DNA of 64,000 nt from Catenuloplanes indicus (GTDB taxonomy: Bacteria > Actinomycetota > Actinomycetes > Mycobacteriales > Micromonosporaceae), in NCBI RefSeq assembly GCF_030813715.1, contig NZ_JAUSUZ010000001.1, positions 7,254,001-7,318,000 of the forward strand, written 5' to 3'. The notes under the pieces are model-generated. The model saw only the letters and a program-made list of their open reading frames with translations, ran no database searches and was not told the origin of the DNA. Position numbers and translations under genes: made by a program. Position 1 is the stretch's first letter. Each line of letters begins with the position of its first letter. This document shows, piece by piece, positions 21,182 to 57,703 of this stretch.

Positions 21182-21763
21182 ATGGTGAACAGCACGTCCT
21201 CGATCCCTCGCAAGGACGCCGGGGACTCCGAAGCGACGGGTGAGACGCCGGAGGCGGCGCTCGAACACCTGCAGCGGGTGCACCGGCCGGTGCTGCTCGC
21301 CTACGTCCGGCAGCTCGTCAAGGGCGACGTCCACTGGGCCGAGGACGTGGTCCAGGAGACGATGGTGCGCGCCTGGAAGAACCCGGACGCGCGCATGCAG
21401 GACGGCCGGTGGAGCCGCGGCTGGCTGTGCACCGTGGCCCGGCGGATCGTGATCGACAACATCCGCGCGGCCGCAGCGCGCCCGGCGGAGGCGCCGGACG
21501 AGCTGATGCCGGAGATCGCCGCGGCCGAGGTCGATCTGGCCGCCCGGCTGGACGACCGGGAGATCCGGGCCGCGATCGCGATGCTGCCGGAGCGGCTCCG
21601 GACGGTCCTGGTGGAGATCTTCTACCAGGAGCGGACGGTCGCGGAGGCAGCCGAGGTGCTGGACGTGCCGGCCGGGACCGTGAAGTCGCGGACGTTCTAC
21701 GCGCTGCGGGCGCTGCGGGGCGCGCTGGACGAGCGGGGCTACAAGCGGCATGACCAGGATTGA
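21182..21763 (+). CDS. ECF RNA polymerase sigma factor
   Basis: Alternative sigma factor, probably controlled by the upstream anti-sigma protein. It has 193 residues from ATG 21182; the next codon is GTG, so the start could be 21185. Region 2 is seen as WAEDVVQETMVRAWKN (about residues 51-66) with RGWLCTVARRIVIDNIR. Region 4 has LPERLRTVLVEIFYQERTVAEAAEVLDVPAGTVKSRTFYALRALR. It resembles the second ECF factor at 24978 closely in region 2, so the two are probably paralogues. It overlaps the next gene by 14 bp. Confidence 0.93.
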   Translation: MVNSTSSIPRKDAGDSEATGETPEAALEHLQRVHRPVLLAYVRQLVKGDVHWAEDVVQETMVRAWKNPDARMQDGRWSRGWLCTVARRIVIDNIRAAAARPAEAPDELMPEIAAAEVDLAARLDDREIRAAIAMLPERLRTVLVEIFYQERTVAEAAEVLDVPAGTVKSRTFYALRALRGALDERGYKRHDQD

Positions 21764-32653: not shown

Positions 32654-35600
32654 ATGGCTGGCCCAGCGATTCTCAATCCCTCAGCCCAGCTCTGCCCGGA
32701 CGGCCACCTCATTCCGACCGGCGGCGGAAGCATGTTCTACCACCCGTTCCCGCTGGGTACGCCGGTCGACCTGGTCGCGGTGATCCACGCGATGAACGCG
32801 CCGAAGGAGGCCGGGCCGACGTTCTCGATGGGCCACTCCGGGCTGGTCGACGTGGGTGCGCTGGAGACCGCCTCACGGGTCGTGCACGACCTGATGGAGA
32901 ACATGGGCACCGCCCGCCGGATTTCCACCCAGCTGCCCGCCGGCGCCGAGCAGACCGCGATCACGACCTGGCAGAAGGCTTCTGACATGGTCGGGGTGCC
33001 GATCAGCACCGGCTACCAGCCGTGGATGGAGACCTCGCCGCGCGTTGTCCGGGTGGGCGCGGAGGGCCACCCGGACGCGGCCGGCGGGTTCGTCCGGGTA
33101 CTGCCGAAGGGGCTGGCCGTGATGCGCGGCGCGCTCGACGCGGCGTCCCGGCTCGCCGGCGGGACCGCCGCGTCGCCGTGGGACCGGCTGCAGGAGCTGA
33201 TCGCCGCGGTCGCCGAGATCCGTGAGGAGCTGAGGGTGCCGCGCTCCGGCACCCCGGCCGGCGCGCAGTACTGGCAGGCCGGTTACCAGCTGGCAGCCGG
33301 CATCGCGCTCGGCCTGACGGTTCCCGCCGAGCTCGCCACCGCGGTCACCCCGATCGCGCCGGAGCAGCTGGCCGCGCTGCTCGGCGACGCGGTGCCCGTG
33401 ACCGACGCGCGGCAGCTGGCCGCACGCCTGGCCGCCGAGCCGGGCGCGCGGGCGCTGGTGCACCGGGCCGGCAGCGGCGGCGGCGGATCGTCGCGCTGGC
33501 TGGTCTCGCACGACGGCGCACTGTGGTGGGTGGACCTGGCCGCGTCCGCGGACGAGGCGACCACCCGGTTCGACCCCGAGGACTCCCGGCATCTCGCCGC
33601 GCTGACCGAGGCCGGCGTCTCGGTCCGGATGCTCACCCCGGCCCCCTCGCCGGAACCGTCCTTCGCACCGAAGTCCGGTCTGGTCGACGCGCTGATCGAT
33701 CCGGTTCTCGGCCGCCGTGCCGCCGGCATGCTGAACACCCGGCCCCGCCCGCAGGCCGGTGAGGTCCCCGGCATCGGTACCGGGGCGACCGGGCCGGAGG
33801 CACTGATCCAGGCCGAGTTCGACGCGGTCGCGGCGGACCTGCGCGGCAGCGACCCCCGCCGCCAGTTCGACGCGGTCGACGACCTGATCAGTACCCGACT
33901 GCCCGCGGTCCGGGCCCGGTTCGCCGCCCAGGAGACCGCCCAGGAGCAGGCACGGATCGTCGCGATGCGGGCGGTCACCGCGCACACCCGTGCGATCAGC
34001 CGCCTGGACGACGCCATCCGTGATCGCGAGCGGGAGATCGCGGACAACGAGGACACGCTCCGCGAATTCGGGCGGCGGATCGAGGAGGCGGAGTCCAACC
34101 TCGCCATCCGGAGGACCAGGCACGAGGAGGAGGTCCTCGCGTTCAACGAGGCCGAGCGGGCCGCCCGCACCGCACCCGCCGGCACGACCCCGGCACAGCG
34201 GCAGACCCTCGCGGGGGCGGTACAGGACGCGATGAAGGCGGTCGGCGAGGCCAAGGCGGAGATCACCGCGGTGACGCGCCAGATCAAGAAGCTGACGATC
34301 GCCAGGGACTCGCTGATCTCGGACATCCGGGATGCGCGGGCGGCGAACGCGGCGGACCGGGCGTCCAGGGCCGCCGAGGGTGGCCAGCGGAACCTGCAGC
34401 AGCGGGCCGGGCGCGCGGCGATCGAGGCCCGGGACACCGCCCTGGCCGACCAGCAGCTGGTCGACGCGAACCTGGCCTACCTGCGGTCGCTCGCCGCGGA
34501 CTGGGCCGGGCTCGAGTACGGCGATGTGGTCCGCACCGCCGACCGGGTGGCAGCCAGCGAGACGGCCGGCTCGGCCACGCGCACGCTCCACGACACGGCC
34601 GCGGCGGAGGTGACCGCCATCTTCGGCCGGGCGGCCGCGGTCACGCCGGAGGACGTCGGCCGGCTCGCCTACCTCGGGCACCTGGACAAGGCGCGGACCA
34701 GGGTCGAGACCGCGCACCGGGCCGGGCTGCCCGCGCTGCGGGCCACCACCCAGGCACATATCGACCGGCTGGTCCGGCTGACCGGTCGCGCGGCCCCGAG
34801 TGCGGCCGAGATGACCCGGATGGTCGACGCGGCCGTGTCGCTCAAGCTCTGGACCGATCTCTCGGACGCGTTCGACTCGGCCCGCCCGGCCGCCGAGCAG
34901 GCCCGGGCGGACGCGGCCGACCAGACCCGGGTCCTGATCGAGCAGGGCGGCAACCTGGGCGAGCTGCTGAACCGGTTCACGGACCGGGCCACCCGGCGGG
35001 TCAGCCTGCCGCAGACCGGCGGGTACGTGGCCAGTCTCGGAACCCGCACCGAACTGGTCAACGCCCCGTCCGCGCCCTGGTTCCTGCGGGAGAGGGGCGT
35101 GCTCGGCGACGGCTACGTCCGACGCGTCAACGACCACCCGCAGGCGAACGGCATCGCGACGTTCGCCCGGACGCTGACCACCGCGGTGAAGAGCCGGCTC
35201 GGCTCGTCCACGCGGCCCTGGAAGTCGGTGCCGAACGAGGTCGAGACGTGGCTGACCAAACAGCTCGTCAGCAAGGACGAGCGGCACTGGGAGAAGATGA
35301 TCGAGTCCGGCGTCGGCCGCGACTTCAACGGCCGCTTCGTCCGCGTGCACGTGCGGCCGGCCAACCCGGCGTACCAGATCCAGGATCCGCAGGGTCTCAA
35401 GCCCGGCGAGGCGAACATGCACGTCCGGGGCGCCGACATCGCCTACTCCCGGAGCCGGGGCGGGGGCGGTGGCTGGGGACTGCCGCTCGGCGCGGCCGTC
35501 TTCTTCGAGACCGCCAGCGAGATCGTCCGGTTCGCCATCGGCCCGATCGCCCGCTTCTTCGTCGGCGGCTCGCGGCGCTGGTCCGAGACGGCGAGCGGCA

Positions 35601-38600
35601 GCGTGCAGGCCGAGAACATGATCTTCACCGGAGACTTCGCCACCCACCAGTTCGGTGCGGACGCCCAGGTGATCGTCGAAGTCGACGGGCAGCAGATCGT
35701 CAGCCAGGACCTGGCCGGTCACCTGGTGCTGGCCATGCCGCAGCTGCTGTCCAGCAAGCGCGACGAGGTGGACCCGGCCACGGTGGGCGCGGCCACCCGG
35801 GTGAACAACCCGGCTGCGCTGCTCGGTCAGGACTTCGCGGTCAGCGCGGCCACATTCGAGGATCCGCTGACCGAACTGCAGAACCAGCTGCAGCGGCATC
35901 CCGACTTCAAGCTGTCCGCCCGCAACGCGGCCCGGGTGGTGGACAAGCTGCGCCGGGAGATGATGAACCAGAAGTCGGCCAAGGACTCGAACCAGTGGTG
36001 GACCTCGAACAGCTGGGTCTCGCCGTTCGTGTCGATGAAGGTGGGCAAGCTTCGCCGGCTGGAGGGGCACCTGCGGACCGGTGGGAAGCTGGTCGACCTG
36101 CGCCGGATCACCGACACCGCCGGCCTGATCCGCAACGACATGGCGGTCACCGCCGGCCGGGGCCGGGGCTCCGGCGGCAGTTCCGCGGCGGCCGGCCGGA
36201 TCGGCGGCGAGCCGCCACTGTCGCTCGGCGAGCACCTGGTGCTGCCGCGCTGGGACGTCGCGTTCATGGCCAGCAACCGGTCCACCGGACGGTCACTGTC
36301 CGCGGAGTCGACCGCCCGGACCATGCTCACCCGCAAGGCTACGATGATCCGCTACCTGGCCACGGTCGCCACCGACATGACGCTGGACTCCAGCCGCGGG
36401 CAGCTGGGGGTGCGGCGGAACGCGACCGTGGAGCTGGTCGTGCCGGCCCCGTACGCGGACGCGTTCGAGGAGCAGATCCTGGCCACGCCGGCGCTGCGCG
36501 AGGTCTTCGCGAAGCCGCCCCACACGGTCGTCACCATGCCGGAGACCGGCCGGAGCTGGCGGAACCCGATGAGCAGCCCGGCGCCCAAGGCGTGGCCGGG
36601 CAAGGGCGCGCGCACCCCGGCGGACCTGCGGAAGATCGCCGAGAAGCACCGGATCGAGGTGTCGGTTCCGGACCCGGACAATCCCGGGCCGGCCTGGGCC
36701 TGGGCGCATCGGGGCACACCGGCCCGGACCTGGGCGCAGACCGGCAAGTTCAAGGTGCGGTTCCGCCACCCGGAGAACGGCGACTTCGAGTATGCCGGCG
36801 TGGACGAGGTCCCGGTGTTCCGTTACCGCACCGACCCGGCGAACACCGGCCGGATCATCGGCGCCACCGTGTTCACGAAGGGCACGGTGCACCCGCCCGG
36901 CGGGACGCCGCAGACGGACGTGGTCGCGGTGGAGTTCGTGCGGAACCCGGCGTTCCCCGCACCGGCCGCGGCCGCGGTGGCCGGTGACGGTGCCGCCGTA
37001 ACGCCGCCGCCGTGGCACTCCTCCGGCGTGCGGGACGCGATCGACCTGTACGTGCTCGCCAAGCAGCATCCGATCGAGATCGCGGTCGCCGGGCGGTCCG
37101 GCGCGCGGACGCCGCAGCTGATCGAGAATCTGCCGGACAGCCTGCACACGCTGTGGCTGTCCCGGCAGTCGGTGCTGCTGCGCGGCGACGGCGACTACAC
37201 CTATGCCGCGGGCGACTCCACCGCGGCGCGTTTCCGGTACGTGGTGGACGAGCGCGGCATGGTGGTCTCCGCGATCCCGCTCGGCAACCCGGTCACCAAC
37301 GCGGGCGTGACCACCCGGGCGGCCGGGACCGCGGTGCCGAACCCGGCGCTGTCGCTGCCCGCCCGGCAGCCCTCGGCCACCCCGGCCGAGGCGGTCCGCC
37401 AGGTGCAGCGCTACCTCGACGGTGTGACCGCCTACACCCAGATCCAGCTCTCCACCGGGGTGCCGGCGCAGGTGACCGCGCTGCTGAGCGCGCATCCGCA
37501 GGTCGAGCTGCTCGACCAGACCGGCGCCCGGGTGCCCGGCCAGGTGCTGCCGACCGGGCCGCGGCCCGCCGAGGCGACCCGCGGCGTGGTGCACTCCGAC
37601 GGCTGGGTTAACCAAGGGCTCAAGCCGCTCTCCGGCCCGACCCGGGAGCCGTGGGCACTGGCCGCACGCAGCGGACTCGGGCCGGGCGCGCTGAAGGAGA
37701 TGCCCGGCACCGAACTCATCTTCGCGGACGTGCTCATGCTGGTGGAGCAACAGATGCGGGCGGTCGGCAAGAAGCTGACGGCGCAGGCACGGCAGGAGCG
37801 GTTCTGGGAGCTGGCCGCGAAGTTCGGCGCGCCGGGCCTGCGCGGCGGGCAGCGGTCACTTTTCGACGGCGGCATCACGGACACGTACACGGTCGGTGAT
37901 CTCACCTTCCACGTCAACCTGACCGGCACGCTCGGCGACCTGCGGGACATCGAGACCATTCCGGATTACTGGGTGGACAACCGGAACGTCGGCGCGGGCG
38001 GGCACTCGGTCTCGGAGAGCCTGTCCCGGCGGTGGGGCACCCGGCTGGACCTGTCCACCCGCCTCGGCATCAAGGACTTCTTCGGCATGCGGGTCCGGGT
38101 GGCGGACGTGCAGCTCGCCTGGGACCGGACGCACGCCCGCAGTGCCGCCCAGTCGTCGGAGAGCGGCCGGCGTCGCAAGATCGGCGGACTGGTCACCGCG
38201 TTCAACCACGGCACGCACTACCAGCTGACCGTGACCGTGACCGACAAGAACGGCAAGGAGATCAAGCCGGCCAGCTCGCGAGCGTACGACGGCGAGGCGC
38301 TGGTGCACGTGGCCGACACCGACCTGGCGCCGCTGCCCGCCCCGGCCCCGGCCCCGGCGAGCGACGGCATCACGCCGGTCGTCCCGCCACCGCCGACCGG
38401 ACCGCCGCCGCTGCTCACCGACGAGCAGGCGGTGAGCCGGCTGACCCCGGCTGAGGCAGCCGACATGGAACGGTGGCTGGCCGGTGCGGACGTCACCGGC
38501 GGAGCCGGCGAGCTGGTCTCCGGCGTCCGGGACAACAGCGAGGGAATGTACATCTGGCTGAACCGGGTCGGGAAGCTCGCCGAAGGGCTCCAGCGGTTCG

Positions 38601-41600
38601 TCGACGTGGTCGACGGCCACCTCAAGGCGCCGAAGGCGGGCAGCCTGGACGAGTTGCTCGCCGCGCTGGCGCCGGGCGGTGAGCGGCACCACCTCGAGGA
38701 GGGCATCGCCTCCGGGATCACGCCGGACTTCCTGGAACCGAGAGCCGGCGACATGATGAGCCGCACCGGTGCGGTCGTGCCGCTGGCAAAGGACGGCGAC
38801 ATCGTCCGCCAGCTGCGCGTCTTCATGGTGCCGGCACACGCGCGGTACGTCCGGCCGACCGACGACCCGACGCTCAAGGAGTACTCGCGGACCGGTGTCC
38901 GCGCGGCCGCGTCCGAGACGTCGGGCCGGGGCTTCTCGCTCCAGACCGGTCCCGCGCTGATCTTCCAGACCGGCAAGGGCGCGGCCGGGCTCCACGACCA
39001 GGACGCGCACGTCGCCGCGTCCAGCCGGATGGCCGACCACATCAACGTCACCGCCGACGTGAACGTCGTCCAGCGCAGCAGCGAGACCGAGACCGTGGTG
39101 ACCGGCGGCAAGGAGGGCACCCGGGCGTCGTTCGAGGGTCGCAGCTACACGCACTCGTCGGATGCGCTCTTCATGGTCTTCTACGAGCGGTACTCGGACG
39201 GGGCGCTCTGGTCGGCGCCGTACGACCTGAAGCTGGCCGGGGGCCTGGAGACCTCCACGCCGTACGTGCTCGCCGGTGACCTGACATTGCCGGTGCCGGC
39301 CACGGACCGCAAGACGGTCCCGACGGAGACGCGCGACCTGCGGCCGATCCACCCGGAGCTGGCGTACGCCACCTCGCACGTCTCCACGCTGACCGCGAAC
39401 CAGACCACCCGTGAGCAGCGGACCAGGACGGTGCTCCAGGGCGACCGGCGGGTTCAGCAGACCCGCGAGGTCACGGTGATCAGGAACGTCTTGCAGGTCG
39501 TGGAGGACAAACTCGCCGGGATGGGCGTCGACGTCAAGGATCCGGCCATCTCCGGCGCGCTCGCCACGCTGTTCCGGGACAGCGCGCTCAAGCGGCACTA
39601 CCGGACCATCCGCAAGGAGGGCATCTATCAGCTGATCACTCTGGAGCGGAAACGCGGTACCCGGCAGATAGGCATCAGGCTCACCGCGCGCGACGACCGG
39701 CTGGTGCACGAACGGCCACGGCCGGACGCGAAGACCACGATCAGCGGTGCCTCCACCGCGGCCACCGCGCACACCGAGGGCACGTCGACCACGGTCGTCG
39801 CCGGTACCTCGGTGGACGGCCGGTTCATGCAGGACACCGCGCGCATCGTCATCGGCGCCGAGGCCGGCCACGAGTGGGAGCGGGCCGATTCGACCACGGA
39901 GAGCACGGCCGTCCAGATGCGCCGCCGGGGCGGCCCGCTCGATCTGGGTAGCCAGGAGTTCGGCGCGGACACCCGCTTCTCGCTGGAGTTCTTCGAGACG
40001 ACCACGCTGCCGCAGGCGGTCGAGACGCTGAAGGACGTCGCCAAGATCACCGCGAAGGTGGCGGACACGATCACCGACGGCCGCGTCCGCAAGCGGTTCC
40101 AGAGCCTCTTCCCGGCCGGGGCCCAACCGTCCGGCCGCGCCCACGTCGGCGGGCATGTCTCGGTGCTCACGCCGAACCACCTGACCCGGATCGGCCCGCC
40201 GCGCACGCCGGCCGGCACCATGCCGCTGCCGGCCACGCTCGCCGACCTGCCGCCGTCCCGGGTGACGATCTTGAACGGCGCCGGGCCCGACCCGTCGAGC
40301 CTACCGGCCGACCTGCGAGCGGACGCGACGGTGACCCGGTCGCTCGCCCCGGACCTGTTCGGCCTCGAGACCTACGGCTTCGAGAAGTTCGCCGATTTCC
40401 TGCCGGCCATCCGGCAGCCCGGTGCGGAGCGGCTGGACACGGACCTCCCGGCGCCCCGGGTCGCTGACTACGGCCCGCTCTCCACAGTGGCCGCGAGCAT
40501 GAAGGCGGCGCTGGCCGGCGAGAACGTGTCCACCCACATCGGCGAGATGTTCGACGGCAGCTACACCGTGTTCGGCGACGGCGGTGACGCGTTCACCGTT
40601 CAGGCGGTGCTGCGCCAGGGCCGCTGGCTGGGCCGGGGCGGGTACGACCAGTCGAACGCGCCGCTGCACGCGGAGGAACTGGAGCAGGAGCACGAGCGCG
40701 AGTCCGGCTTCGAGGTCGCGCCGCTCGAGGTCGCCAGCGGTCACTCACAGGGCGGCGAGCGCGCGTTCGTCGGCACCGGTCTCGGCGTGGCGAAGGGCGA
40801 GGGAACCGGGTCCGCCAGCGGTGTCAGCGACTACGCGATCCAGATCGCGCGCCGCAAGGGTGACCACGACTACATCTGGTTCGACGTCACGTTGATCGGC
40901 CGTTCCAGCAACGGCCGGTCCTGGATCCGCGGCGAGGTGCCGTTCGGGCTGCTGGCCCGGATCCCGTCGGAGAAGGCCGCGGCCGTGTTCGGCCCGCAGA
41001 TGTCCACGCTGGGCCTGGTGGACCAGGCGTTGCTGCGCGGGCTCAGCGGGGACGTCGTGGTGCCCTATCCGGACCGGCGGTTCCTGGTCGACGCGCTGGC
41101 GAAGCAGCGCACCCGGCCGGCCCCGAACCTGAACGACTTCGACGAGCGGGCCGACGCGCTGCGCCGGGCGCTGGACTGGACCCGCGCGACGGAGATGGCC
41201 CCGTCGGCCGCCGGTGCCGCGGCGCCGCCGGTCACCCCGGCCGACTGCGTGGACCGGGCGTTCGCGCTGTTCGTCGCCGTGCATCGGCGCACCACGAACG
41301 TGACCACGGACGTCGGCAGGGTCGGTCACCGCACGGCGGAGGACGTGGCCCGCGCACTCGGTGGTGAGTTCCTGCGGATCCGGGACCCGCAGGCGATCAA
41401 GAACTACCTGGAGAAGCGGCCGGGTGCGATGCTGATGCTGCGGGTGCCGCCGGACCCCGGTGGGGAATCGCACGTGTTCTGGGTGATGTCGATCGGCCAG
41501 AGCCGCGACGGCGCCGGGAATCTGACCGGTCCGCGCCGGCTGCGCGTCTTCGACGGCCAGGCGCACGGCGTCTCCTACACCGATGCCGATCTGGGCGACC

Positions 41601-43099: not shown

Positions 43100-43112
43100 C
43101 CAGGGGATACGT

Positions 43113-45155: not shown

Positions 45156-45290
45156 CATGTTGCCGATGTGCGGAGTCGGTTACCTTCCGGAAACCGGATC
45201 CACCGGGTCCACGGGTGGGTTGATCTGCCTTTGCACAGGTCGGACAGTTGGTACGAACGAGACGGGAGTGAAGACTTTGTAAAACCTGTG

Positions 45291-45318
45291 TGAACCAGCT
45301 GCGCTGACGAGACGTTAA
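45291..45318 (+). promoter_or_regulatory. Putative ECF-type promoter of giant gene 2
   Basis: TGAACC (45291-45296), 16 bases, CGTTAA (45313-45318). Around it, similarity to the giant 1 promoter extends over AAAACC-x-GT-xTGAACCAG and CTGACG. The rest of the 200-bp gap between companion 1 and giant 2 shows no gene. Confidence 0.6.
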
Positions 45319-45357
45319 GCAGGATCCGTACGCCTCGCAGCACAGTTGGGAGACGGC

Positions 45358-48300: not shown

Positions 48301-51300
48301 TCGGAGAACTTCGCGTTCACCGGTGACTGGGCGATGAACGAGTACGACACGGACGCCCAGGTGGTCGTGGAGGTGGACGGCCGCGAGGTGGCCGCCCACG
48401 ACCTCGACGACCACCTGCTGATCCTGTCGCCGCAGCTGGTCTCCACGGACCGGGACGCGGTGGACCCGATGACGATCGGCGAGCCGACCCGGGTGACGAA
48501 CCCGGGCGCACTGCACCATCAGGACTACGTCTTCACCGCGGCCGACTTCACCGACCCGCTGGCCGAGCTCGGCCGGCGGCTGCGCACCGACCCGGCGTTC
48601 ACGCTCAGCGACACCCAGGCCGCGCGCGTTGTCGACAAGCTCCGGCAGCAGTTCCTGAACCCCCGGGTGGTCAAGGAACAGAACCAGTGGTGGACCACGG
48701 ACGCCGGGGTGTCGCCGCACGTCTCGCTGGGGCTCGGCAAGGGCCGGCACCTCGACGGGCACGTGCGGACCGGCGGCAAGCTGATCGACCTACGCCGGAT
48801 CGAGCGGACGCCGGACGCGATGATCCGTAACGACGCGGGCGCCGCCACCAGCCGGTCGGCCGGACGCGGTGGCAGCTCGGCGGTGGGCGGCCGGCTCGGC
48901 GTGGAGTTCCCGCTCAGCGTCGGCGACCACCTGATCCTGCCCCGGCTGGACGTCCTCACGCTCAAGCTGAACCGGGACGTGGACCGGTCCGCCAACATCG
49001 AGTCCTCCGCGCAGTACCTGCTGGTCCGCGGGGACAAACTGATCCGGTACGCGGCCACGTTCGCCACCGAGCTGACGCTGGACTCGAACCGCGGCCAGCT
49101 CACCGTGCGCCACCCCACGGTCGTCGAGCTGGCCGTGCCGGAGCGGCACGCGGCCGCGTTCGAGGAGCAGTTGCTGTCCACGCCGGAGCTGCGCGACGCG
49201 GTGGTGCTGCCGGAGGGCACGCTGACGCTCGCGGCGAAGGGCGCCAAGCCGGTCAAGCCGTTCCCGCGGGCCGGTGTGACCGCACCGGCCGATCTGCAGA
49301 AGATCGCCGCGACGCACCGGATCGAGATCATGCTGCCCGAGGGCCGGAGCGCGGACGGGCCGTGGGCCTGGGCGGCGAACCACGCCAACGTGGACATCTC
49401 GCATCCGGGCGACAGCTACGCGAGCGTGGCCGACGTGCCCGTCATCCGCTACCAGACCGACCCGGCGGACGGGGACCGGATCCTGGGCGCGACCGTGTTC
49501 ACCCGGTCCGCCGACCCCACGCACCCGGATCCGGTCACCGCGGAGTACGTGCCCAACCCGGCCCATCCGGCCGCCGGCCCGGCCGCGCGGGCGGCGGCCG
49601 CGCCGGATCCGTGGGGCGCGCACGGCGTGCGGGACGCGGTCGACCTGTTCGCGCTCGCCAGGAAGGCGCCGATCGAGCTGGCCGTGCAGGGCCGGGGCAC
49701 CGCACCGGCCGCGTTCACCGAGCTGCCGCCCGCGCTGCACAGCCTGTCCGTGCTGACCGGCCGGGTGCGGCTGCGCGGCGACGGCGCCTACCCGGCGGCG
49801 GCCGAGGGACAGCCCGCGGCGGCGTTCCGCTACCTGGTCGACGACCGGGGGCTGGTACTCGGTGCGATCCCGCTGCGCGCCTCGGGCGGGCCGGGCGCGC
49901 TGGTGCCGAACCCGGCGCTCTACCTGCCGGCGCAGCAGCACACGTCCGTACCGGTGGACGACGCCCTGGAATCGGTGCAGCGCTTCCTGGACGGGCTGGA
50001 CGTGCCCGGGTACGCGCAGGTGCAGCTGGCCGACGGGGTGCCGGCCGCGATCGTCGCGGCGCTGTCCGCGGATCCGCGGGTGGAGGTGGTCGACCACACC
50101 GGCACCCGGCTGGCCGGGCAGACGCTGCCGGACGCGGTGCGAGAGGGCGTGGAACCGGCCGGCGTGCGGCGGCACGTCGTCTCCGCGGACGGCTGGGTGA
50201 ACGGTGGCCTCCGGCCGCTGACCGGGCCGACCCGGGAGCCGTGGGCGATGGCCGCCCGCACCGGCCTGGGTCCTGGCGTGATGAAGGAGATGCCGGGCGC
50301 CGAGATGATCTTCGGGGACGCGTTGCGGCTGCTCCAGTTCCAGATGGCGAAGGTCGGCAAGACGCTGAAGCGCGGGCAGCGGACCAAGCGGTTCGCCGAG
50401 CTGGCCGCGAAGCTCGGCGTGCCCGGCCTGCGCGGGTTCCAGCGGTCCCTCTTCGACGGCGGGATCACCGACACGTACACGATCGGCGACCTCACGTTCC
50501 GGGTGAACCTGACCGGTGAGCTGGGCGACCTGCGCGAGGTGCGCACCGTCCCGGACTACCTGCTGGACACCAAGCGCACCGGCCGGTCCGGGCTCAGCGT
50601 GCGCGAGCTGCTGGCCTACCAGGTCGGCGCGCGGGTGGACGGCTCCGGCCGGGTCAGCATCAAGGACTTCTTCGGCTTGCGGGTCCGGCTGGTCGACCTC
50701 CAGGCCGCGTTCGACCGGGAGTACGCGAACCTGATCGGCCTGGCCCAGGCCGGTGCGCGGCGGCGCAAGGTCCGCGGCACGCTCACCGAGTTCGACTACG
50801 ACGTGCGGTACCAGCTCACCGTGTCGGTGACGGACAAGAAGGGCAAGGTGCTCACCGACGTCAGCACCCGCACGTACGGCGGCGAGGCGTTCCACGCCCC
50901 GGTCCGGGTGGCCGAGGAGGACCTCGCGCCCGCCCCCGGCACCGCGCACAGTCAGGAGCCGCTGCCGGGTGACCGGCCCACGGTCACCCGGCTCACCCGG
51001 GACGAGTCGCGTGCCGCCCGGTCCTGGCTGGACGGCGCGGAGCCGGACGGCTTCGTTTCCACGGTGGACGGCAACACCGAGGGCATGTACGTCTGGCTGA
51101 ATCAGGTCGGCACGCTGGCCGAGTCGGTGCAGGCGTTCGTCAACGGCGTCGACGACGCGCGGCAGGACACCTCCGCCACCACCGCCATGCTGCGCGACCT
51201 CGCGCCGGGCGGCGGTCGGCTGGCGCTGGAGGCCGGCGTCGCGGACGGCATCCGGCCCGACTTCCTGGAGCCGCGGGCCAGCGACCTGATGACCCGCCTC

Positions 51301-54300
51301 GGCATCGTGGTACCGCTGCGCCGGAGCCGGGGCGGCACGGTCCGCCAGCTCCGGATCCGCCTGCTGCCGGCGAACCCGCGCTTCACCCGGCCCACCGACG
51401 GCGCCACCAACCGCGACTACCAGGACTCGAACGTGCAGAGCGGCGGCAGCGAGGGCGACGCGATCAGCGGCGCGGCCACCGTCGGCGCCGGCGGCATCTT
51501 CCAGTGGGGACCCGGTGCCGCGGCCGTGCCGGACGACGGCGACGGTGCCAAGGGCACCGGCTACGTACCCGGTCAGGACCCGGAGCCGGGCCAGCGGATC
51601 CCGGCGTCCAGCCGGGGCGCCGACCACGTCAACCTCGGGGTGGACGCGTCCGTCTCCGGGCGCTGGGGCGTGACCACGTCCGCGCTGGCCGGGGGCACGA
51701 CCACCACCCGCGCCGGGTACGAGGGCCGCTCCTACAACCACTCGGCGGACGCGGTCTACCTGATCACATACGAGCGGTACTCGCGCGGCGGGAAGCTCAC
51801 CAGGTACGAGCACGACCTGCGGATCGCGCACGGGATGGACATGTCCACGCCGCACGTGACCGCGCAGGAGCTCGGGCTGCCGATCCCGGACGCGGACGCG
51901 CGGCAGATGCCGGCGAAGACGGCCCCGCTGACGCCGATCCACAAGGAGCTGGCGTTCGCCGCCTCCCCGGTGGAGAAGCTGACCGCGACCCGCACCAAGA
52001 ACGGTGTGACCCAGGACGTCCTGGCCGTGGTCAAGGAGCGGCTGCGCGGGATGGACGTGGCGATCGACGACCCGTCGCTCTCGCTGGCCGTGGAGAACCT
52101 GTTCCGGACCAGCGCGATCAAGGCGCACTACCGGACCATCCGCCGGGACGGGCTGGAGGCGCTGATCACGCTGAACCGGCCGCTCGGCGGCGTGAAGCGG
52201 ATCGGCATCCGGCTCACCGCGGACGACGGGCCGCTCACCTACCGCCGGCCGCGCCCGGACGTGAAGGGCACGATCAGCAAGGGCGGTCTGGACCAGCGCG
52301 GCTGGTCCGAGGCGAAGGACCGGTCCGCCAAGATCGGGCCGGCCGGTGACGCGCGGTTCGGTCCCGGCGATGCCCGGATGGCGATCGGCGCCGGCGCGGA
52401 GGCGGAGTGGGGCCGGACCACGGTGGACGGCCGCACCGACTCCGACCAGCCGTACCTGCGGGTGTCCCCGACGAACCCGGACAGCCAGGAGTTCGGCACG
52501 CACACCGTACTCAAGCTGGAGTTCTTCGAGGCGTCCGACCTGCCGCAGGCGCTCGAGGCGTTCGTCTCGGCCGGATCGGCCACGGCCAAGATGGTCGACA
52601 CGATCTCCGACGGCTGGCTGCGCACGCTGCTCCAGGAGGCGGTCACCGGGAAGCGGAAGCCGAAGCACACCGAGACCGTCCCCGGCCGGCTGCGGCTGAT
52701 CACGCCGAGTCACCTGACCCAGGAACGGCCACCGTTCGAGGCCGTGCCGCACCTGCGCAGCGAGCTGCCGAAGACGGCCGCGGACATCAAGCCCGCCTCG
52801 GTGCGGGTCCTCAACCGCAACCCACCGCCCGGCGGCCCGGCCGACCTGCAAGCCGACCTGGCGGTGACCGCGCGGCTGGCCGGGCACGTACAGGCGCTGG
52901 AGATCTTCGGGTTCGACGCGTTCACCACCTGGCTGCCGACTACTCGGATGCCCGGCGCGGAGCGGTACGACACGACCAAGCCGGTGCCGCGGCTTCCCGG
53001 ATACGCGCCCTGGTCGACCGCGCTCACCTCGGTGAAAGCGGCGCTGAGCAGCACCAACGTCACGCCGAACATCAGCCGGCTGCTGACCGGCGGCTACACG
53101 GTCAAGGGCGACGGCGCGGACGAGTTCACGGTCCGGGCCGTGCTGCGCGGCGGCACCTGGCTGTCCCGCGGCGACTACCGCGCGACGAACATGCCGATCA
53201 AGGTGACCGCCCTCTCCCAGCGGCGGGACCAGCGGTCCGGGCTGAGCATCCGGCCGGTCGAGGTCGAGGCCGGCCCGCGCGAGGGGGACGAGAAGCTGAT
53301 CGTCGCGACCGGTATCGCCGGCGGCGGCTCCCACTCCGCCGGGGACGCCAGCGGCGTGGGCAATGTGGAGATCACCTACGAGAAGAAGGCCGGCGACTAC
53401 GACTACTTCTGGTTCGACCTGACGCTGATCGGCACCTCCTCGAACGGCCGGGCCTGGGTGCGCAGCGACGTGCCGCACGGGCTGATCGCGCGCATCCCGT
53501 CGGAGAAGGCCGCCGAGGTCTTCGGCCCGCGGGCCACGCTCGGGATCATCGACCAGGCGCTGGTCCAGGCGCTCGCGGACGACGCGCCACCGGCCTTCGT
53601 TGCGGACCGGCGGTTCATGATCGAACGGCTCGCCGGACGCGGGCCGGCCGCGCCGAACCTGCTCCGGCAGGAGGAGCTGGACGCGGCGGTGCAGCGGCTG
53701 CGCGACTGGCTCGCGGCGACCGAGGTACCGGCGCCGGTCCCGGGCGCGCCCCGGCCCGCGGTGACGCCGGAGGACTGCGTGATCCGCGCGTTCGGCGCGT
53801 TCATCGCGGTCCACCGCCGCACCGCCAACGGCACCACCGACACCGACCGGGCCGGGGACGGCGGGGCCGAGGACCTGGCCACGTCGCTGCGCGGCGACTT
53901 CGCCCGGCTGCGCGACCCGGACTCGCTCTGGCGCTACGCGGCGAGCCGTCCCGGCACCATGATCGCGTTCCGGGTGCCGCCGCCGCCCGCGGGCAACTCG
54001 CACCTGTTCTGGGTGATGTCGATCGGCGGCGGCCGGATGATGTGGGTGGACGGCCAGCGGCACGGCGCGGGCAACCTGGCCGCGTCGATCGGCACGCCGC
54101 TGGACAACCTGCGCGGGCTGATCACCGACCAGCACGCGCGGATGTTCCGCAAGTCCGGCACCGAGGTGCTGATGCTGGACGAGCGCGGCCGGTCGATCGA
54201 CCTGCGGGCCGCGCTGCCCGACGTGCTGACCAACCGGGCCTCCGGCGACCGGCTGGGCCGGCGCGCGTCCGGCGAGCTGCCGCAGCAACACGTCGCACCG

Positions 54301-55668
54301 TCGCTGGATCTCGCGGCCTCCACGCTCCCCGGCATCAAGGCGCCCCTGTCAGATGTCAAGGCGCAGCTGTCGGGTGTCAAGGCGCCGCTGTCGGGCGTCA
54401 AGGCGCAGCTGTCGGGTGTCAAGGCGCCGCTGTCGGGCGTCAAGGCGCAGCTGTCGGGTGTCAAGGCGCCGGTCCCGGCCGGCACGCCGCCGCTGCCGCA
54501 GATCCAGAACACGCCTCCGGCGATCGTCGCCCCGGATCGCGAGATCATGACGCTCGGTGACTTCACGACGCAGCGCGCCGGCCAGGCGCTCGAGAGGATC
54601 ACCGCATCCGCGCGCGGCGTGGCCGGCCCGCCGGTGCGGGTGATCAACCTGGGCGGTCCGGCGGAGAGCGCGCTGGCGGCGGTCCGGCGACTCGACGAGA
54701 CGCTGCGCAACGACGCGTGGCGCGGTGTCGCGCCGATCGTGGTCGCGACCATGGGCACGAAGCGCACCGAGGACGCGTTCGCGCTGGTCCGCCACGCCCG
54801 TGGCGCGGTCACCGTGCAGGAGACGATGGACGCCGACTTCAAGCAGGTGTGGCAGTTGCTCGGGCCGCACGCCGCGCAGGCCGACACCATGGTGGCCGCG
54901 CCGACCGTGGAGCTGTTCCGGCGGGCCGGCACGCTGGTCCGTCCGGCCGGCGGCACGCTCACGCCGGAGCTGGCCGCGTGGATCAGCGCGCCGGACTGGG
55001 CCGCCACGGAGGCGTACCACCGGGCGTACGCACCGGCGCTGCACACGCCGGGCGTCGCGGACGAGCTGCGCCGCGTTATCGCGGAGAACCCGGCCGACCA
55101 GCGCCTGCCCGGCCTGCTGCTCGCGCTGGAGACCGGGCGGCGGGCCGGTGGCGTGCCGGACACCCGGCTGACGCCGCGCGCGGTCTCGTTCCTGGAGGCG
55201 GAGCCCGCCTACCGGGGTGGACCGGTCCCGCCCACGTTCGTCTACGACTACCTGGCCGGCGCCGGACGCGGCCGCCGTGATCGCTTCACCATGGACGGCC
55301 TGCTCTTCCAGCTCATGCTGGCCGGGCAGTTGAGCCCGGACGAGACGCTGGCGCTGGCGCGCACCGGCACCGCGAACCGGCTCGACCGGGCCAACGTGAC
55401 CGTCATCGAGATGGTGGCGGACCTGCTCGCGGTGTCGCCGGACCGGCTGCGCACCGACTCGGCCGCGGTCACCGCGGAGTTCGTGGCCCGGGCCAGGCGG
55501 GTGGCCAGCACGCAGACCGGTGTCAAGCCGGAGGAGTGCCTCGACCCGGTGGACCGGACCGCCTGGGTCGGCCGGCTGGACGGGCTCCGCGACGACCTGC
55601 GGGCCCGCGGCGAGACCGCGCGCGCGGCGATCCTCGACGCCCTCACCTACACACTGTCGAACTGCTGA
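45358..55668 (+). CDS. Giant multidomain protein with papain-like / glutamine-deamidase-like core (copy 2)
   Basis: 3,436 residues from ATG 45358 (MSGTGTLDAFAALCPDGR); the frame opens at TTG 45346 but that lies in the ribosome site, and the ATG puts the conserved Cys at 14 as in copy 1. Collinear with copy 1 from end to end: coiled coil (about residues 400-600, RIPAEEARVTAADTAFTAA), SAPWFLRERHVLGDSYV, a hydrophobic stretch before TGGSRRW, NQWWTTDAGVSP, SLFDGGITDTYTIGDLTF, FLEPRASDLMTRLG, FEVSDLPQALEAF-type blocks. The papain-like core has Cys2807 (EDCVIRAF), His2882 (SHLFWVM) and Asp2898-Gly-Gln2900. It ends in TYTLSNC like copy 1. Differences: a longer linker after the core that carries a 21-bp minisatellite, and no Pro/Ala linker of the copy 1 type. 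Only four cysteines found. Function unknown. Confidence 0.85.
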   Translation: MSGTGTLDAFAALCPDGRLIPIDNGVYFHPYPMGTPVDLIELQRAMNVGTRAGGPAFFMDPRGLSDVAALETVQRVTRDLLGELGAGARITTVATGGAERTWLTAADLVGVPITVLDAPDAQPSARLVRDGDQLHVLPKGLAAMRAVLATAAELAVDRRTPLWTRLERLVARVAEAREEYRVPRSGSVSGAAVWQAGYQLAAGLVLGAPPGTNLTALPAAVQPVSEAELLRLFGGEPRTPESLTGTTLDAPALVHVPGTNGGPGTVRWLVPRDGALWWVDLSADPADAVRRFDPADAANPPAGTTVRVLRPEPARSVLDTPTSLVDALIDAPLGRAAAGALQPTRPAPRTAPAAGVTPGAEGPEELVRAQVEAVGEALREGTPEQQFTALDDLLTRRLPPIRDRYETTRAEHDATVRAAGTAIAAHDARSAELDTRIPAEEARVTAADTAFTAAQDARAAAERARAALTAQIEAAQVARGRAFEALSQSTRDDHVRLQAASVAASQRVNQLVRQAEADDAEIVRLREAEEAAWVHVTDLRGGVAALRAEHGRIPGLRAEEVRRRTEATALRDTAVANRDLLDTHLTHLRDTAADWARLELGDARRLDTRMQAAEADGSALRRAHRDAAAGVGTIAARGGTITVADVGRLAYLRHMSLAGGAVRREQAEAAPELERAYVEYVGMLTAYAGTPAVDGEAARLAGRQSTLALWNALADRFDVEQAAAEAARTEAMDLARNEEAAARRSGRPADLAGVATRLLDPDGRLRGEPWHGASDLAGRLRWMLAETAADMATLRARIEAATAPSAPWFLRERHVLGDSYVRDVQPLDAADVQALTSAIAPAVGDSMRPWRADSGDLAPWLTSTLGSREAADWERLIDTGVAEEFNGKYVRVFVRPSNPRFRRARPVRPGRTGQDVQLQLRFGEKTFSQSRGGSRAWNLPVGLITVLAVTNDLLQAVVGPTLRLFTGGSRRWAEVAGGRINSENFAFTGDWAMNEYDTDAQVVVEVDGREVAAHDLDDHLLILSPQLVSTDRDAVDPMTIGEPTRVTNPGALHHQDYVFTAADFTDPLAELGRRLRTDPAFTLSDTQAARVVDKLRQQFLNPRVVKEQNQWWTTDAGVSPHVSLGLGKGRHLDGHVRTGGKLIDLRRIERTPDAMIRNDAGAATSRSAGRGGSSAVGGRLGVEFPLSVGDHLILPRLDVLTLKLNRDVDRSANIESSAQYLLVRGDKLIRYAATFATELTLDSNRGQLTVRHPTVVELAVPERHAAAFEEQLLSTPELRDAVVLPEGTLTLAAKGAKPVKPFPRAGVTAPADLQKIAATHRIEIMLPEGRSADGPWAWAANHANVDISHPGDSYASVADVPVIRYQTDPADGDRILGATVFTRSADPTHPDPVTAEYVPNPAHPAAGPAARAAAAPDPWGAHGVRDAVDLFALARKAPIELAVQGRGTAPAAFTELPPALHSLSVLTGRVRLRGDGAYPAAAEGQPAAAFRYLVDDRGLVLGAIPLRASGGPGALVPNPALYLPAQQHTSVPVDDALESVQRFLDGLDVPGYAQVQLADGVPAAIVAALSADPRVEVVDHTGTRLAGQTLPDAVREGVEPAGVRRHVVSADGWVNGGLRPLTGPTREPWAMAARTGLGPGVMKEMPGAEMIFGDALRLLQFQMAKVGKTLKRGQRTKRFAELAAKLGVPGLRGFQRSLFDGGITDTYTIGDLTFRVNLTGELGDLREVRTVPDYLLDTKRTGRSGLSVRELLAYQVGARVDGSGRVSIKDFFGLRVRLVDLQAAFDREYANLIGLAQAGARRRKVRGTLTEFDYDVRYQLTVSVTDKKGKVLTDVSTRTYGGEAFHAPVRVAEEDLAPAPGTAHSQEPLPGDRPTVTRLTRDESRAARSWLDGAEPDGFVSTVDGNTEGMYVWLNQVGTLAESVQAFVNGVDDARQDTSATTAMLRDLAPGGGRLALEAGVADGIRPDFLEPRASDLMTRLGIVVPLRRSRGGTVRQLRIRLLPANPRFTRPTDGATNRDYQDSNVQSGGSEGDAISGAATVGAGGIFQWGPGAAAVPDDGDGAKGTGYVPGQDPEPGQRIPASSRGADHVNLGVDASVSGRWGVTTSALAGGTTTTRAGYEGRSYNHSADAVYLITYERYSRGGKLTRYEHDLRIAHGMDMSTPHVTAQELGLPIPDADARQMPAKTAPLTPIHKELAFAASPVEKLTATRTKNGVTQDVLAVVKERLRGMDVAIDDPSLSLAVENLFRTSAIKAHYRTIRRDGLEALITLNRPLGGVKRIGIRLTADDGPLTYRRPRPDVKGTISKGGLDQRGWSEAKDRSAKIGPAGDARFGPGDARMAIGAGAEAEWGRTTVDGRTDSDQPYLRVSPTNPDSQEFGTHTVLKLEFFEASDLPQALEAFVSAGSATAKMVDTISDGWLRTLLQEAVTGKRKPKHTETVPGRLRLITPSHLTQERPPFEAVPHLRSELPKTAADIKPASVRVLNRNPPPGGPADLQADLAVTARLAGHVQALEIFGFDAFTTWLPTTRMPGAERYDTTKPVPRLPGYAPWSTALTSVKAALSSTNVTPNISRLLTGGYTVKGDGADEFTVRAVLRGGTWLSRGDYRATNMPIKVTALSQRRDQRSGLSIRPVEVEAGPREGDEKLIVATGIAGGGSHSAGDASGVGNVEITYEKKAGDYDYFWFDLTLIGTSSNGRAWVRSDVPHGLIARIPSEKAAEVFGPRATLGIIDQALVQALADDAPPAFVADRRFMIERLAGRGPAAPNLLRQEELDAAVQRLRDWLAATEVPAPVPGAPRPAVTPEDCVIRAFGAFIAVHRRTANGTTDTDRAGDGGAEDLATSLRGDFARLRDPDSLWRYAASRPGTMIAFRVPPPPAGNSHLFWVMSIGGGRMMWVDGQRHGAGNLAASIGTPLDNLRGLITDQHARMFRKSGTEVLMLDERGRSIDLRAALPDVLTNRASGDRLGRRASGELPQQHVAPSLDLAASTLPGIKAPLSDVKAQLSGVKAPLSGVKAQLSGVKAPLSGVKAQLSGVKAPVPAGTPPLPQIQNTPPAIVAPDREIMTLGDFTTQRAGQALERITASARGVAGPPVRVINLGGPAESALAAVRRLDETLRNDAWRGVAPIVVATMGTKRTEDAFALVRHARGAVTVQETMDADFKQVWQLLGPHAAQADTMVAAPTVELFRRAGTLVRPAGGTLTPELAAWISAPDWAATEAYHRAYAPALHTPGVADELRRVIAENPADQRLPGLLLALETGRRAGGVPDTRLTPRAVSFLEAEPAYRGGPVPPTFVYDYLAGAGRGRRDRFTMDGLLFQLMLAGQLSPDETLALARTGTANRLDRANVTVIEMVADLLAVSPDRLRTDSAAVTAEFVARARRVASTQTGVKPEECLDPVDRTAWVGRLDGLRDDLRARGETARAAILDALTYTLSNC
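54340..54465 (+). repeat. 21-bp minisatellite in giant gene 2
   Basis: Six in-frame 21-bp units encode alternating heptads APLSGVK and AQLSGVK (first unit APLSDVK). Units 2-3 and 4-5 form identical 42-bp pairs, so the array grew by duplication of a two-unit block. It lies between the papain-like core and the C-terminal module, the place where copy 1 has its own tandem duplication nearby. Confidence 0.92.
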
Positions 55669-55681
55669 ACCGGGGAGAACC

Positions 55682-57703
55682 GTGGATCTGCCGCTCACCG
55701 TCAAGAACTCGGAAGCGATCTGCATCGACCACATGCTGCCGACCGCGACCGGTGCCCACCTGCACACCGAGTCGATCTCCACCCGGAACCGGGACACCCG
55801 GCTGCGTACGATGACGAACCTGCCGGCGATGGACCGGTTCGCCTACCTGACGCTCGGCCGGGAGATCTCGGACGCGCTGGGCGACAGCACCGCACTGGGC
55901 GCCGACCGGGCGCGGGCCGTGCTGCGCCAGTTCCTGGCGGGCATCCCGATCGAGACGGCGGATCGCTACGTGGTGCGCCTCGACCCGGAAGGCCTGTCCC
56001 TGGCCGATGTGGTGACCCGCGCGGACCGGCTCGGCCTGCCGATCGAGGTGCCCCGGGCCGGGCTGCGCGCCGGACCGCCGGTCGACCCGCACCGGCTGCT
56101 CGGCGTGGACGGCGGCATGCGGCCGGCCCCGGTCGACGGCGCGGAGTTCGTGCGCGTGATGCCGTCCCGGCACCGTGCGGCGGACGCCTACGCGGACGTC
56201 CCGCCGGAGATGCGCGAGCTGGCGCTGGCCAAGCCGTACCCGTGGGCGCGAATGATTTTCGGCGACGACGGCGTGCGGCTCGGCCTCCCCGCGCCGCTGG
56301 CCCGGCACGCCTACGCGGAGACGCTGCGGCGCCTGCCCCGGCCGCTGCGGCCCGCGGACGCCACCGGCGCACCGGCCCGGGACCTAGCCGGGTACGGCGA
56401 CCTGCTCGCCGCGCTGGCCACGCCCGGCACGCGCGCGTTCGTCACGGTCACCGCGCCGTCCGGCGACACGCTGACCGTGCTCGCGCTGCACGACGCGCAC
56501 GGGGTGTCCGTGCTGGACCCGGGCACCGGCGACGCCGCGCTGCTGCCGGCCGCGCCGGAGCGGATCACGCTCACCCCGGTCGAGGGCTCCCCGGATTTGG
56601 CGACCTGGCTGGACGAGATCCGGGCGGCCGGGCCCGCCATGGCCGCCCGGCCGATCAGCCGCACGCCGACCGTCCACGCGCTGCCGATCGGCGACACCGG
56701 CCGCAGCGTCGACGTGATCGGGGCACCCGGCACGCTGAGCGAGCGGTTCCGGTCCGAGATCGCGGCCGCGGCCGAGGGCGTGGCCGCGCCGGTGGTGGTC
56801 GTCGCCAGGGACCGCAAGCTGCGCGGGCCGTCCGCCGGGCAGCTCGCCAACCTCGAGTGGCTGCTGTTCCAGCACCGGCAGAACCAGCTGGCCGGCGGCG
56901 ACGCGCCGATCGTGGTGATCCACGGCGAGGCGCCGCCGGGCGTCACCGGGCTGCTCGGCGGGTACGACTTCGCGATGGTGCACCAGCCGCGCACCTCCGG
57001 CGGGCAGAGCCTGAATCTGGACAACCTGTGGTCGGCACGGGACGCGGCGGGCAACCCGGTCGCCGCGCCGGTCCGGACGATCACCTCCGATCTGCTGCGC
57101 AAAGCCGGTGCGGTCCGGCCCCCGCTCACCCCGGCCGGTCCACCGGCCGACGAGCGGCTGCTCACGTTCCTCACCACGCCGGTCAGTGACGTGAGCGCGA
57201 TCCGGGCGGTGCTGGACGAGCACGGCTCCGCGCTGAAGACGCTGCTGCCGCAGATCGGCACGCTCGGCACGGTGCAGCAGGACCTGTTCGCGGCGTGGGA
57301 GGCGATCCTGCGCATCGAGCAGCGCGGCGACACCGCGCTGGCCGGCCGCGCGTTCGACTACCTCGGCGCGGGGGAGACGCGGCACCTGCGCGCGCTCGCG
57401 GTGGTGCCGTCGCTGCTGGAGAAGGACCCGCAGACGCGCGGCGGCGCGCTGACCGACCTGATCGACCTGACCCGGGGGACGCTCGACGACGGCGCCAGCC
57501 GGGCGATCCTGGACGCGATCCGGCGCGGCATGGACGGAGCGCCGGACGAGGAGCTGAAGCACCTCATCTATCAGCACTCCGTCTATCTGCCCGAGCACGG
57601 CCGTACCGACTGGATCCGGCAGCTGCGGGAACTGGCCGGGCAGAAGCCGGAGCAGACCGCGCTGTTCGAGAAGATCGCGCTCTACGTGGAAACGTGTCCC
57701 TGA
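55682..57703 (+). CDS. Companion protein of giant gene 2, unknown function
   Basis: 673 residues from GTG 55682 (VDLPLTVKNSEAICIDHMLP), preceded by GGGGAG and exactly 13 bases after the giant's stop, as in the first cassette; the frame extends upstream only through the giant. Paralogue of the product at 43113 along its whole length: AICIDHxxPTxxGAxxHTESIS at the start, AFVTVTAPSGDTLTVLALHDAHGVSVLDPGTGDAALLP in the middle, WLLFQHRQNQLAGGDAPIVVIHGEAP, AFDYLGAGETRH, DLIDLTRGTLDDGASRAIL, LIYQHSVYLPEHGRTDWI and VYVETCP at the end. Only Cys14 and the penultimate Cys are present. Unknown family; possibly an accessory, immunity-like or partner subunit for the giant. Confidence 0.82.
   Translation: MDLPLTVKNSEAICIDHMLPTATGAHLHTESISTRNRDTRLRTMTNLPAMDRFAYLTLGREISDALGDSTALGADRARAVLRQFLAGIPIETADRYVVRLDPEGLSLADVVTRADRLGLPIEVPRAGLRAGPPVDPHRLLGVDGGMRPAPVDGAEFVRVMPSRHRAADAYADVPPEMRELALAKPYPWARMIFGDDGVRLGLPAPLARHAYAETLRRLPRPLRPADATGAPARDLAGYGDLLAALATPGTRAFVTVTAPSGDTLTVLALHDAHGVSVLDPGTGDAALLPAAPERITLTPVEGSPDLATWLDEIRAAGPAMAARPISRTPTVHALPIGDTGRSVDVIGAPGTLSERFRSEIAAAAEGVAAPVVVVARDRKLRGPSAGQLANLEWLLFQHRQNQLAGGDAPIVVIHGEAPPGVTGLLGGYDFAMVHQPRTSGGQSLNLDNLWSARDAAGNPVAAPVRTITSDLLRKAGAVRPPLTPAGPPADERLLTFLTTPVSDVSAIRAVLDEHGSALKTLLPQIGTLGTVQQDLFAAWEAILRIEQRGDTALAGRAFDYLGAGETRHLRALAVVPSLLEKDPQTRGGALTDLIDLTRGTLDDGASRAILDAIRRGMDGAPDEELKHLIYQHSVYLPEHGRTDWIRQLRELAGQKPEQTALFEKIALYVETCP

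Follow-up and report, generated by a model that had tools for sequence, protein, structure and literature searches.

A 64,000-nucleotide (nt) stretch of the Catenuloplanes indicus genome (the window; G000:C1:7254001-7318000 of 9.25 Mb) carries a giant gene and a shorter companion gene twice in succession, which raises the question of what such a pair encodes and what holds its two members together. Four long open reading frames (ORFs) stand head to tail at positions 32654-57703, just as an initial annotation of the window had described them (Table 1). By comparing sequences across related genomes, we established the anatomy of both proteins and found that giant and companion are built on a common chassis with a conserved terminal cysteine, that they are linked and have diverged together, and that they co-occur with a type VII secretion system (T7SS). 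We give roughly even chances to the reading that the giants are toxin-like proteins exported by a T7SS together with the companion as a chassis partner.

A common chassis in giant and companion

We first compared the paralogues with each other. Over their full lengths the two giants are 44% identical and the two companions 54%, both far above chance, so that the collinearity claimed for each holds; the BLAST alignment of the giants was broken in two by the low-complexity filter. Conserved domains at both ends of the giants could be aligned across nine proteins each (A3 for the N-domain, A2 for the C-domain). In 9/9 aligned giants the C-terminal ~400 amino acids (aa) are conserved; variation lies in the middle, which differs between subfamilies.

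While a BLASTP comparison of giant 1 with companion 1 gave no match, profiles relate the two families. The companion profile matched the giant C-domain (96%, E 1e-9; 95%, E 2e-8 in the reverse direction) and, weakly, the N-domain (76%, E 2e-5; 38%, E 3e-4). A bridging profile of 12 divergent companions matched the window-type companions (E 1.8e-32), the giant C-domain (E 1.1e-30, residues 346-720) and the giant N-domain (E 2.5e-19, residues 5-282), with 54 of 55 control comparisons giving E values of at least 0.03 and the remaining one comparing overlapping stretches of the very same proteins. Because the N- and C-terminal domains are thus common to both by profile comparison, we regard the companion as the giant minus its middle. 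The two-component unit proposed at the outset is therefore linked and co-diverged as expected, but its members are not unrelated partners, the companion being made of the giant's N- and C-domains. No Pfam or PADLOC family matched the companions above cut-off, and companion 1 was also without an NCBIfam family.

Both families end in cysteine. The last cysteine is at most 6 residues from the end in 29/31 companions (at 7 and 10 in the other two), 35/35 giants and 10/10 giants of the type we call WXG giants, compared with 35/509 other proteins of at least 200 aa from the same stretches; these lists were picked by hand with chain ends in view, and for one split giant the 5′ half (own_136) was left out and the 3′ half (own_137) kept. 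Cysteine is scarce overall in giants (0.11%) and WXG giants (0.03%) compared with the other proteins (0.56%), and companions are intermediate (0.32%). Exactly two cysteines, one near each end, occur in 22 of the 31 companions and three in 8; the one with a single cysteine was probably called too short. Every row of the companion (A1, 6/6) and giant (A2, 9/9) alignments has the end cysteine, and in A2 the last two columns read N-C throughout (9/9). Proteins read after the main count follow the same pattern, with a cysteine within 4 residues of the end in the WXG giants of G266, G277, G280 and G221 (4/4) and at the end of three giants found by hidden Markov model (HMM), xG067_001, xG067s_004 and xG006c15_006 (3/3). 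The last ~120 residues of WXG giants are common with companions (E 5e-8) and weakly similar to the giant C-domain (E 1e-3).

The middle of each window giant holds a papain-fold (Tox-PL1-like) domain with the residues DC-H-DGQ, in agreement with the C-H-DxQ catalytic pattern. Both domains miss the cut-off of the Pfam family PF15644 (Gln_amidase, Tox-PL1), the giant 2 segment scoring 14.5 bits versus 24.1 (E 0.075) and the giant 1 segment giving no match. They are, however, homologous to a domain of own_136 (BLAST E 2e-20 and 2e-19), a segment of which passes at 28.9 bits, and to a stretch of own_149. In a scan of this genome, PF15644 exceeded its cut-off at three places in own_136 and also in own_138, own_149 and a solo giant at 2.0 Mb, and matched below it in own_141. 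A second, degenerate copy without the catalytic cysteine lies in the N-domain, where the giant 1 stretch matches the papain-domain HMM at E 2.5e-27, a value obtained with an HMM iterated on a set that included this stretch. The companion's papain-like region likewise lacks the cysteine; in a structure model computed from 3 rows (predicted local distance difference test, pLDDT, 73.6) residues ~180-325 fall weakly near papain-like cysteine proteases and deamidases. Intact-looking papain domains number 0 to 3 per giant, and by HMM none was found in the giants of cassette 1 in G067 and G084 or in the tandem giant of C. japonicus.

Tandem history, linkage and a T7SS locus

The paralogous head-to-tail units of the window have diverged together, as expected of a tandem gene duplication. 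The duplication had been recognized initially, correctly but incompletely: in two congeners (G067 and G084) the tandem array comprises three cassettes, against two in this genome and, within the stretch read, one in C. japonicus. The cassette 3 giants of G067 and G084 match giant 2 at 81% and 79% identity, respectively, and their cassette 2 giants match giant 1 at 58-59%. Across 19 pairs, giant and companion distances are strongly correlated (Mantel r = 0.958, permutation p = 0.0001), as they are among the nine tandem-array cassettes considered by themselves (r = 0.907, p = 0.0002), in line with the claim that the pair evolved as a linked unit; a G084 E-type pair, whose companion is in two ORFs, was excluded from these trees and tests. 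The main groups of the giant C-domain and companion trees are concordant, and the trees disagree on, or fail to resolve, the positions of own_T1 and of the tandem cassette of C. japonicus. Given the orthologue identities, the agreement of the trees and the correlated distances, duplication of the whole cassette most likely preceded the divergence of these species and was followed by loss, and the window probably retains two of an ancestral set of three tandem cassettes.

The spacing between giant and companion, exactly 13 nt in both cassettes, had also been taken as a sign of duplication. We found it to be weak evidence, since the gap holds the companion's ribosome-binding site, so that its exact length reflects where this site must be placed and, taken alone, does not prove a duplication. 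Of 19 giant-first pairs from seven genomes, 18 have gaps of 10-14 nt and one has a gap of 45 nt. Gene order varies as well, with the companion first in own_104/105, own_140/141, G047a_051/050, G164, G251, G280 and G221, and the genes on opposite strands in G036. A search ahead of both giants for sigma-70-like promoters and terminator-like sites found neither, but such searches have little power in GC-rich actinomycetes. In G277 (L051-L053; G277:C1:62438-97822), an 11,794-aa ORF is followed by a companion 13 nt later.

To see how widely the pair occurs, relatives were sampled at three levels: 300 genomes of the Micromonosporaceae, 394 of the class, and 84,980 species genomes by pattern scan. 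Because profile searches scored no more than the best 3-5 candidates of each genome, copy numbers in genomes other than this one are minimum values, and the stretches read were chosen around matches, which biases toward finding linkage. Of the 300 family genomes, 22 gave a match to the companion profile and 17 to that of the giant C-domain; among the 394 class genomes the C-domain matched this genome and gave one weak, short match. The pattern scan found companions solely in C. japonicus, at 2 loci, close relatives of the window possibly being omitted there. After the loci were read, we counted a companion in 16 genomes; weak companion-profile matches inside giant ORFs of nine genomes (G102, G113, G132, G151, G185, G206, G219, G243 and G279) were left uncounted. 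A partner lies within 1 kb for 31/35 companions and 32/43 giants, one of the latter (xG067_060) being credited with the companion that follows the preceding giant, and this supports the linkage of the two genes across genomes. Ten of the 43 giants had been admitted for exceeding 1200 aa and ending in cysteine, so this list is not independent evidence for the end cysteine. Unlinked homologues, which the initial annotation had named as a refutation, do exist in part: 11/43 giants are without a full companion within 1 kb, among them the 9,613-aa solo giant at 2.0 Mb.

We next examined what surrounds the cassettes, reading 424 kb around and including the window with genes from a simple codon-usage caller (starts approximate). 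The window cassettes open an island of giants of ~220 kb (7286654-7509389), in which giants range from 2,345 to 7,102 aa. The absence of any ESX marker, noted earlier, holds for the window, but a T7SS locus lies in the same island ~75-85 kb beyond the second cassette (7386-7397 kb). It encodes a LuxR-type regulator, g119, an EccA-like AAA protein with a beta-helix N-terminal part, EccC (FtsK/SpoIIIE ATPase, E 1.3e-82, three matched stretches), two WXG100-type proteins and a YukD-EccD protein. EccC, a WXG100 pair and EccD, the hallmarks of an ESX/T7SS locus, are thus present, with the second WXG100 protein (E 0.0075; first, E 9.3e-12) and the EccD-like membrane domain (E 2.2e-5, 24 bits versus 30) below their cut-offs and the YukD part above its own (E 5.5e-18). 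No EccB was found in the island, the whole-genome matches to PF05108 being solely at 5.894 and 4.498 Mb. A search for MycP gave two Peptidase_S8 genes (7422585 and 7429104); both lie outside the operon, 26-33 kb beyond EccD. Adjoining the locus are g117, an RHS/WXG protein with YD/RHS repeats and a C-terminal WXG domain, and g126, of 7,102 aa, with a C-terminus related to the companion.

The companion and this type of T7SS occur together across the family. An EccD of the island type (E<1e-70) was detected in 19/300 genomes, and a companion is present in 15 of these 19 versus 1 of the 281 others (Fisher p = 8e-21, the genomes not being independent); 18 of the 281 have a weaker EccD match. Excluding G221, which was read solely for its EccD, the counts are 14/19 versus 1/281, and including two uncounted A2 matches, in G090 (568 aa) and G206 (869 aa), they are 15/19 versus 3/281. 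In 13 of the 16 companion-bearing genomes, EccA, EccC or EccD is encoded within 24 kb of a companion. In this genome such nearness holds for the own_114/115 cassette, the window cassettes being 75 kb away. In G251 and G217 the WXG pair and RHS/WXG gene share the companion's contig and EccD is on a different one, and the companion neighbourhood in G120 shows a LuxR gene only. No companion was found in the stretch read in each of four T7SS genomes (G001, G015, G024 and G129).

Proposed toxin-like cargo and rival explanations

Taken together, these results suggest a working model, in which we infer the export route, the pairing, the disulfides, the enzyme activity and the target. The giants, a family of effector-like proteins, travel with an EccB-less T7SS locus in Micromonosporaceae, each giant consisting of an N-domain, a variable middle (with the papain-fold domain in the window giants) and a cysteine-ending C-domain. 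The companion, a chassis without a middle that is translated from the ribosome-binding site just past the giant's stop codon, would most likely pair with the giant through their common ends and be exported jointly with it through the nearby T7SS. The terminal cysteines may then form extracellular disulfides within a chassis, between chassis units or with a WXG giant, and the variable middle would act on a rival or host cell, its papain-fold domain deamidating or cleaving a target or freeing other domains. We more tentatively suggest, as a possibility short of even chances, that these proteins represent a previously unnamed class of T7SS cargo, in which proteins of 2,000-12,000 aa are exported on a common chassis, co-assemble with the chassis-only companion and are held by end disulfides. 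The same tentative proposal covers the make-up of the chassis, namely an N-terminal part with a cysteine and a dead papain domain and a C-terminal alpha/beta and helical domain with a cysteine end.

T7SS polymorphic toxins have a cognate immunity gene downstream; in these cassettes the downstream gene is a chassis paralogue. A different explanation is that the companion is an immunity protein or inhibitor of its own giant, acting as a pseudo-enzyme by occupying or mimicking the papain-fold domain. We consider this unlikely. The presence in the companion of both giant ends, including the terminal cysteine, suggests a fellow cargo protein; companions also stand beside giants without an HMM-detected papain domain inside or outside the N-domain (for example own_105, xG067_001, xG084_084 and xG266_024), and the giants own_142 and own_149 are adjoined by companion remnants only. 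It is somewhat doubtful, though a serious contender, that the giants, once exported by the T7SS, serve the mycelium or spores as extracellular matrix, stalk or adhesin proteins, which the papain domains only process. Their great length and low cysteine content, the many middles without a detected enzyme domain and the neighbouring RHS/WXG protein with its YD repeats would all fit, as would the view, in a passage of Zhang et al. (PMC3482391), that some Tox-PL1 copies are likely releasing peptidases. However, Pfam scans matched no adhesin or matrix family in the window giants, repeat matches elsewhere in the island were confined to the RHS/YD protein g117, and the variation from 0 to 3 intact-looking papain domains per giant, together with the patchy distribution, resembles effector evolution. 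Finally, the giants could be large cytosolic proteins gathered in an expansion hot spot that happens to contain a T7SS. No export signal was recognized on the giants, and the solo giant lies more than 5 Mb from the T7SS, but the enrichment of companions in EccD-bearing genomes and their nearness to T7SS genes make coincidence very improbable.

We return to the proposed reading of exported, toxin-like giants with a co-exported partner and ask how they relate to known systems. Certain T7SS substrates depend on a partner, as in EsxA/EsxB and PE/PPE. Giant and companion resemble these in their side-by-side genes and proposed joint export, but differ in that neither has a WXG match and in that the companion is a trimmed paralogue of the substrate. 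Specifically, no Pfam WXG or LXG domain was found in either window giant or companion, g117 giving the only WXG match among the island giants scanned.

According to passages of Zhang et al. 2012 (PMC3482391), T7SS toxins of actinobacteria carry Tox-PL1 domains, at times in an internal position, and giant multi-toxin proteins such as Streptomyces gi 345002682 also occur in actinobacteria; the general kind is thus already known. With the Tox-PL1/PF15644 toxins of those passages, the giants share the link to an actinobacterial T7SS, the C-H-DxQ papain fold, a large modular build and internal copies. Unlike them, the window giants showed no WXG/LXG N-terminus, have a conserved, cysteine-ending C-terminus and a variable middle, and adjoin a chassis paralogue of ~700 aa. 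They depart in the same way from the usual T7SS polymorphic-toxin layout of a constant N-terminus and variable C-terminal toxin. The multi-toxin proteins, likened here from their description, are similar in giant size and in carrying several toxin-like domains per chain, but the ART, lethal-factor-like, caspase and MCF1-SHE domains described for them did not appear in our Pfam scans. Compared with actinobacterial ESX/T7SS loci as treated in parts of PMC4791881 and PMC4182475, the island has EccC, EccD with YukD, a WXG100 pair and an EccA-like AAA protein, but is without EccB and has a beta-helix N-terminal part on the EccA-like protein; it adds the RHS/WXG protein, a WXG giant and the giant-companion cassettes.

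The combination of a cysteine-ended conserved C-terminus, a variable middle and a chassis-only companion was not found described in our literature searches. If the proposed reading is true, bacterial cargo of up to 11,794 aa is tied to an EccB-less T7SS, and the companion represents a way of making a partner by joining the two ends of the cargo itself. This would bear on how a T7SS might recognize substrates without a WXG domain. Terminal cysteines in such cysteine-poor giants make a sharp, easily tested prediction about extracellular assembly, and two families without a Pfam or PADLOC match above cut-off gain a genomic context and a working hypothesis.

Gene coordinates, further copies and neighbouring genes

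Coordinates are collected in Table 1. The automatic call of giant 1 begins 26 codons later than its ORF start. For giant 2, ATG at 45358 is a more likely start than TTG at 45346 because GGGAGA sits 4 nt upstream of the former; the listed 727-aa ORF of companion 2 (from 55520) runs into giant 2. An ARAGORN call of tRNA-Gly (acc) within giant 2 (46179-46250) is probably spurious, as Rfam gives no match.

Table 1 Features of the two cassettes (window positions) and of the T7SS locus (genome positions).
Feature	Position	Strand	Details
Giant 1 (own_080/g080)	32654..43099	+	3481 aa; ORF; AAGGGG 7 nt 5′ of ATG
Giant 1 conserved N-domain	32654..33650	+	Alignment A3
Giant 1 degenerate papain-like stretch in N-domain	~33170-33538	+	Catalytic Cys absent
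Giant 1 papain-fold (Tox-PL1-like) domain	41117..41578	+	Cys codon 41246, His 41471, Asp 41552; DC-H-DGQ motif
Giant 1 conserved C-domain	41840..43096	+	Terminal Cys codon 43094-43096; alignment A2
13-nt gap 1	43100..43112	+	Shine-Dalgarno-like GGGGA for companion 1
Companion 1	43113..45155	+	680 aa; ORF, alignment A1
Companion 1 Cys codons	43152 (N-terminal), 45147 (C-terminal)	+	Alignment A1
Giant 2	45358..55668	+	3436 aa; ORF
Giant 2 conserved N-domain	45358..46400	+	Alignment A3
Giant 2 papain-fold domain	53644..54072	+	Cys codon 53776, His 54001, Asp 54049; motif
Giant 2 21-nt tandem repeats	54335..54471	+	Code ..LSGVKAP/Q.. linker from papain domain to conserved core of C-domain
Giant 2 conserved C-domain	54445..55665	+	Terminal Cys codon 55663-55665; alignment A2, HMM match
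13-nt gap 2	55669..55681	+	Shine-Dalgarno-like GGGGA for companion 2
Companion 2	55682..57703	+	GTG start; 673 aa; C-terminal Cys codon 57695; alignment A1
eccC	7390512-7394582		

A whole-genome search with companion 1 recovered six companions of full length together with a short remnant match, every one of them at 7.297-7.510 Mb, and the genome holds at least 10 giants, one of ten being split into two ORFs. This appears to be the case of own_136/own_137 (G000:C1:7433965-7449997), apparently one giant in two overlapping ORFs; the same subfamily is a single 8,040-aa ORF in G067. Short ORFs after own_142 (7494931-7495083, 50 aa) and own_149 (7509156-7509389, 77 aa) match the companion C-terminus only and, judged by that match, are companion remnants. 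The solo 9,613-aa giant (L091/L090; G000:C1:2000640-2029481) has the same C-domain, the terminal cysteine and PF15644 above cut-off, has no companion and is also more than 5 Mb from the island. Elsewhere in the genome, PF15644 exceeds its cut-off in a 972-aa ORF ~4-5 kb from an EccC-like gene (L093; G000:C1:6610961-6619661), perhaps a second T7SS-linked toxin locus.

Upstream of the cassettes the window contains pyrC-, carA-, carB- and metK-like genes and branched-chain amino acid ABC (ATP-binding cassette) transporter genes, an assignment based on the binding protein and one permease. A subtilase (Peptidase_S8) gene lies at 21750-23102, ~10 kb 5′ of giant 1, and a kelch-repeat gene follows the second cassette.

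Cysteines also recur in other proteins of the T7SS locus. The EsxA-like WXG100 protein g122 (own_122) has a single cysteine conserved at position 17-20 in 18/19 genomes, and g119, with a hydrophobic segment by eye, has four recurrent cysteines, the last within 6 residues of the C-terminus in 15/15; the RHS/WXG protein is cysteine-free in 10/12. Near the T7SS of G280, two adjacent 214-aa genes with identical printed ends (L060; G280:C1:4013467-4014853) are perhaps a recent duplication.

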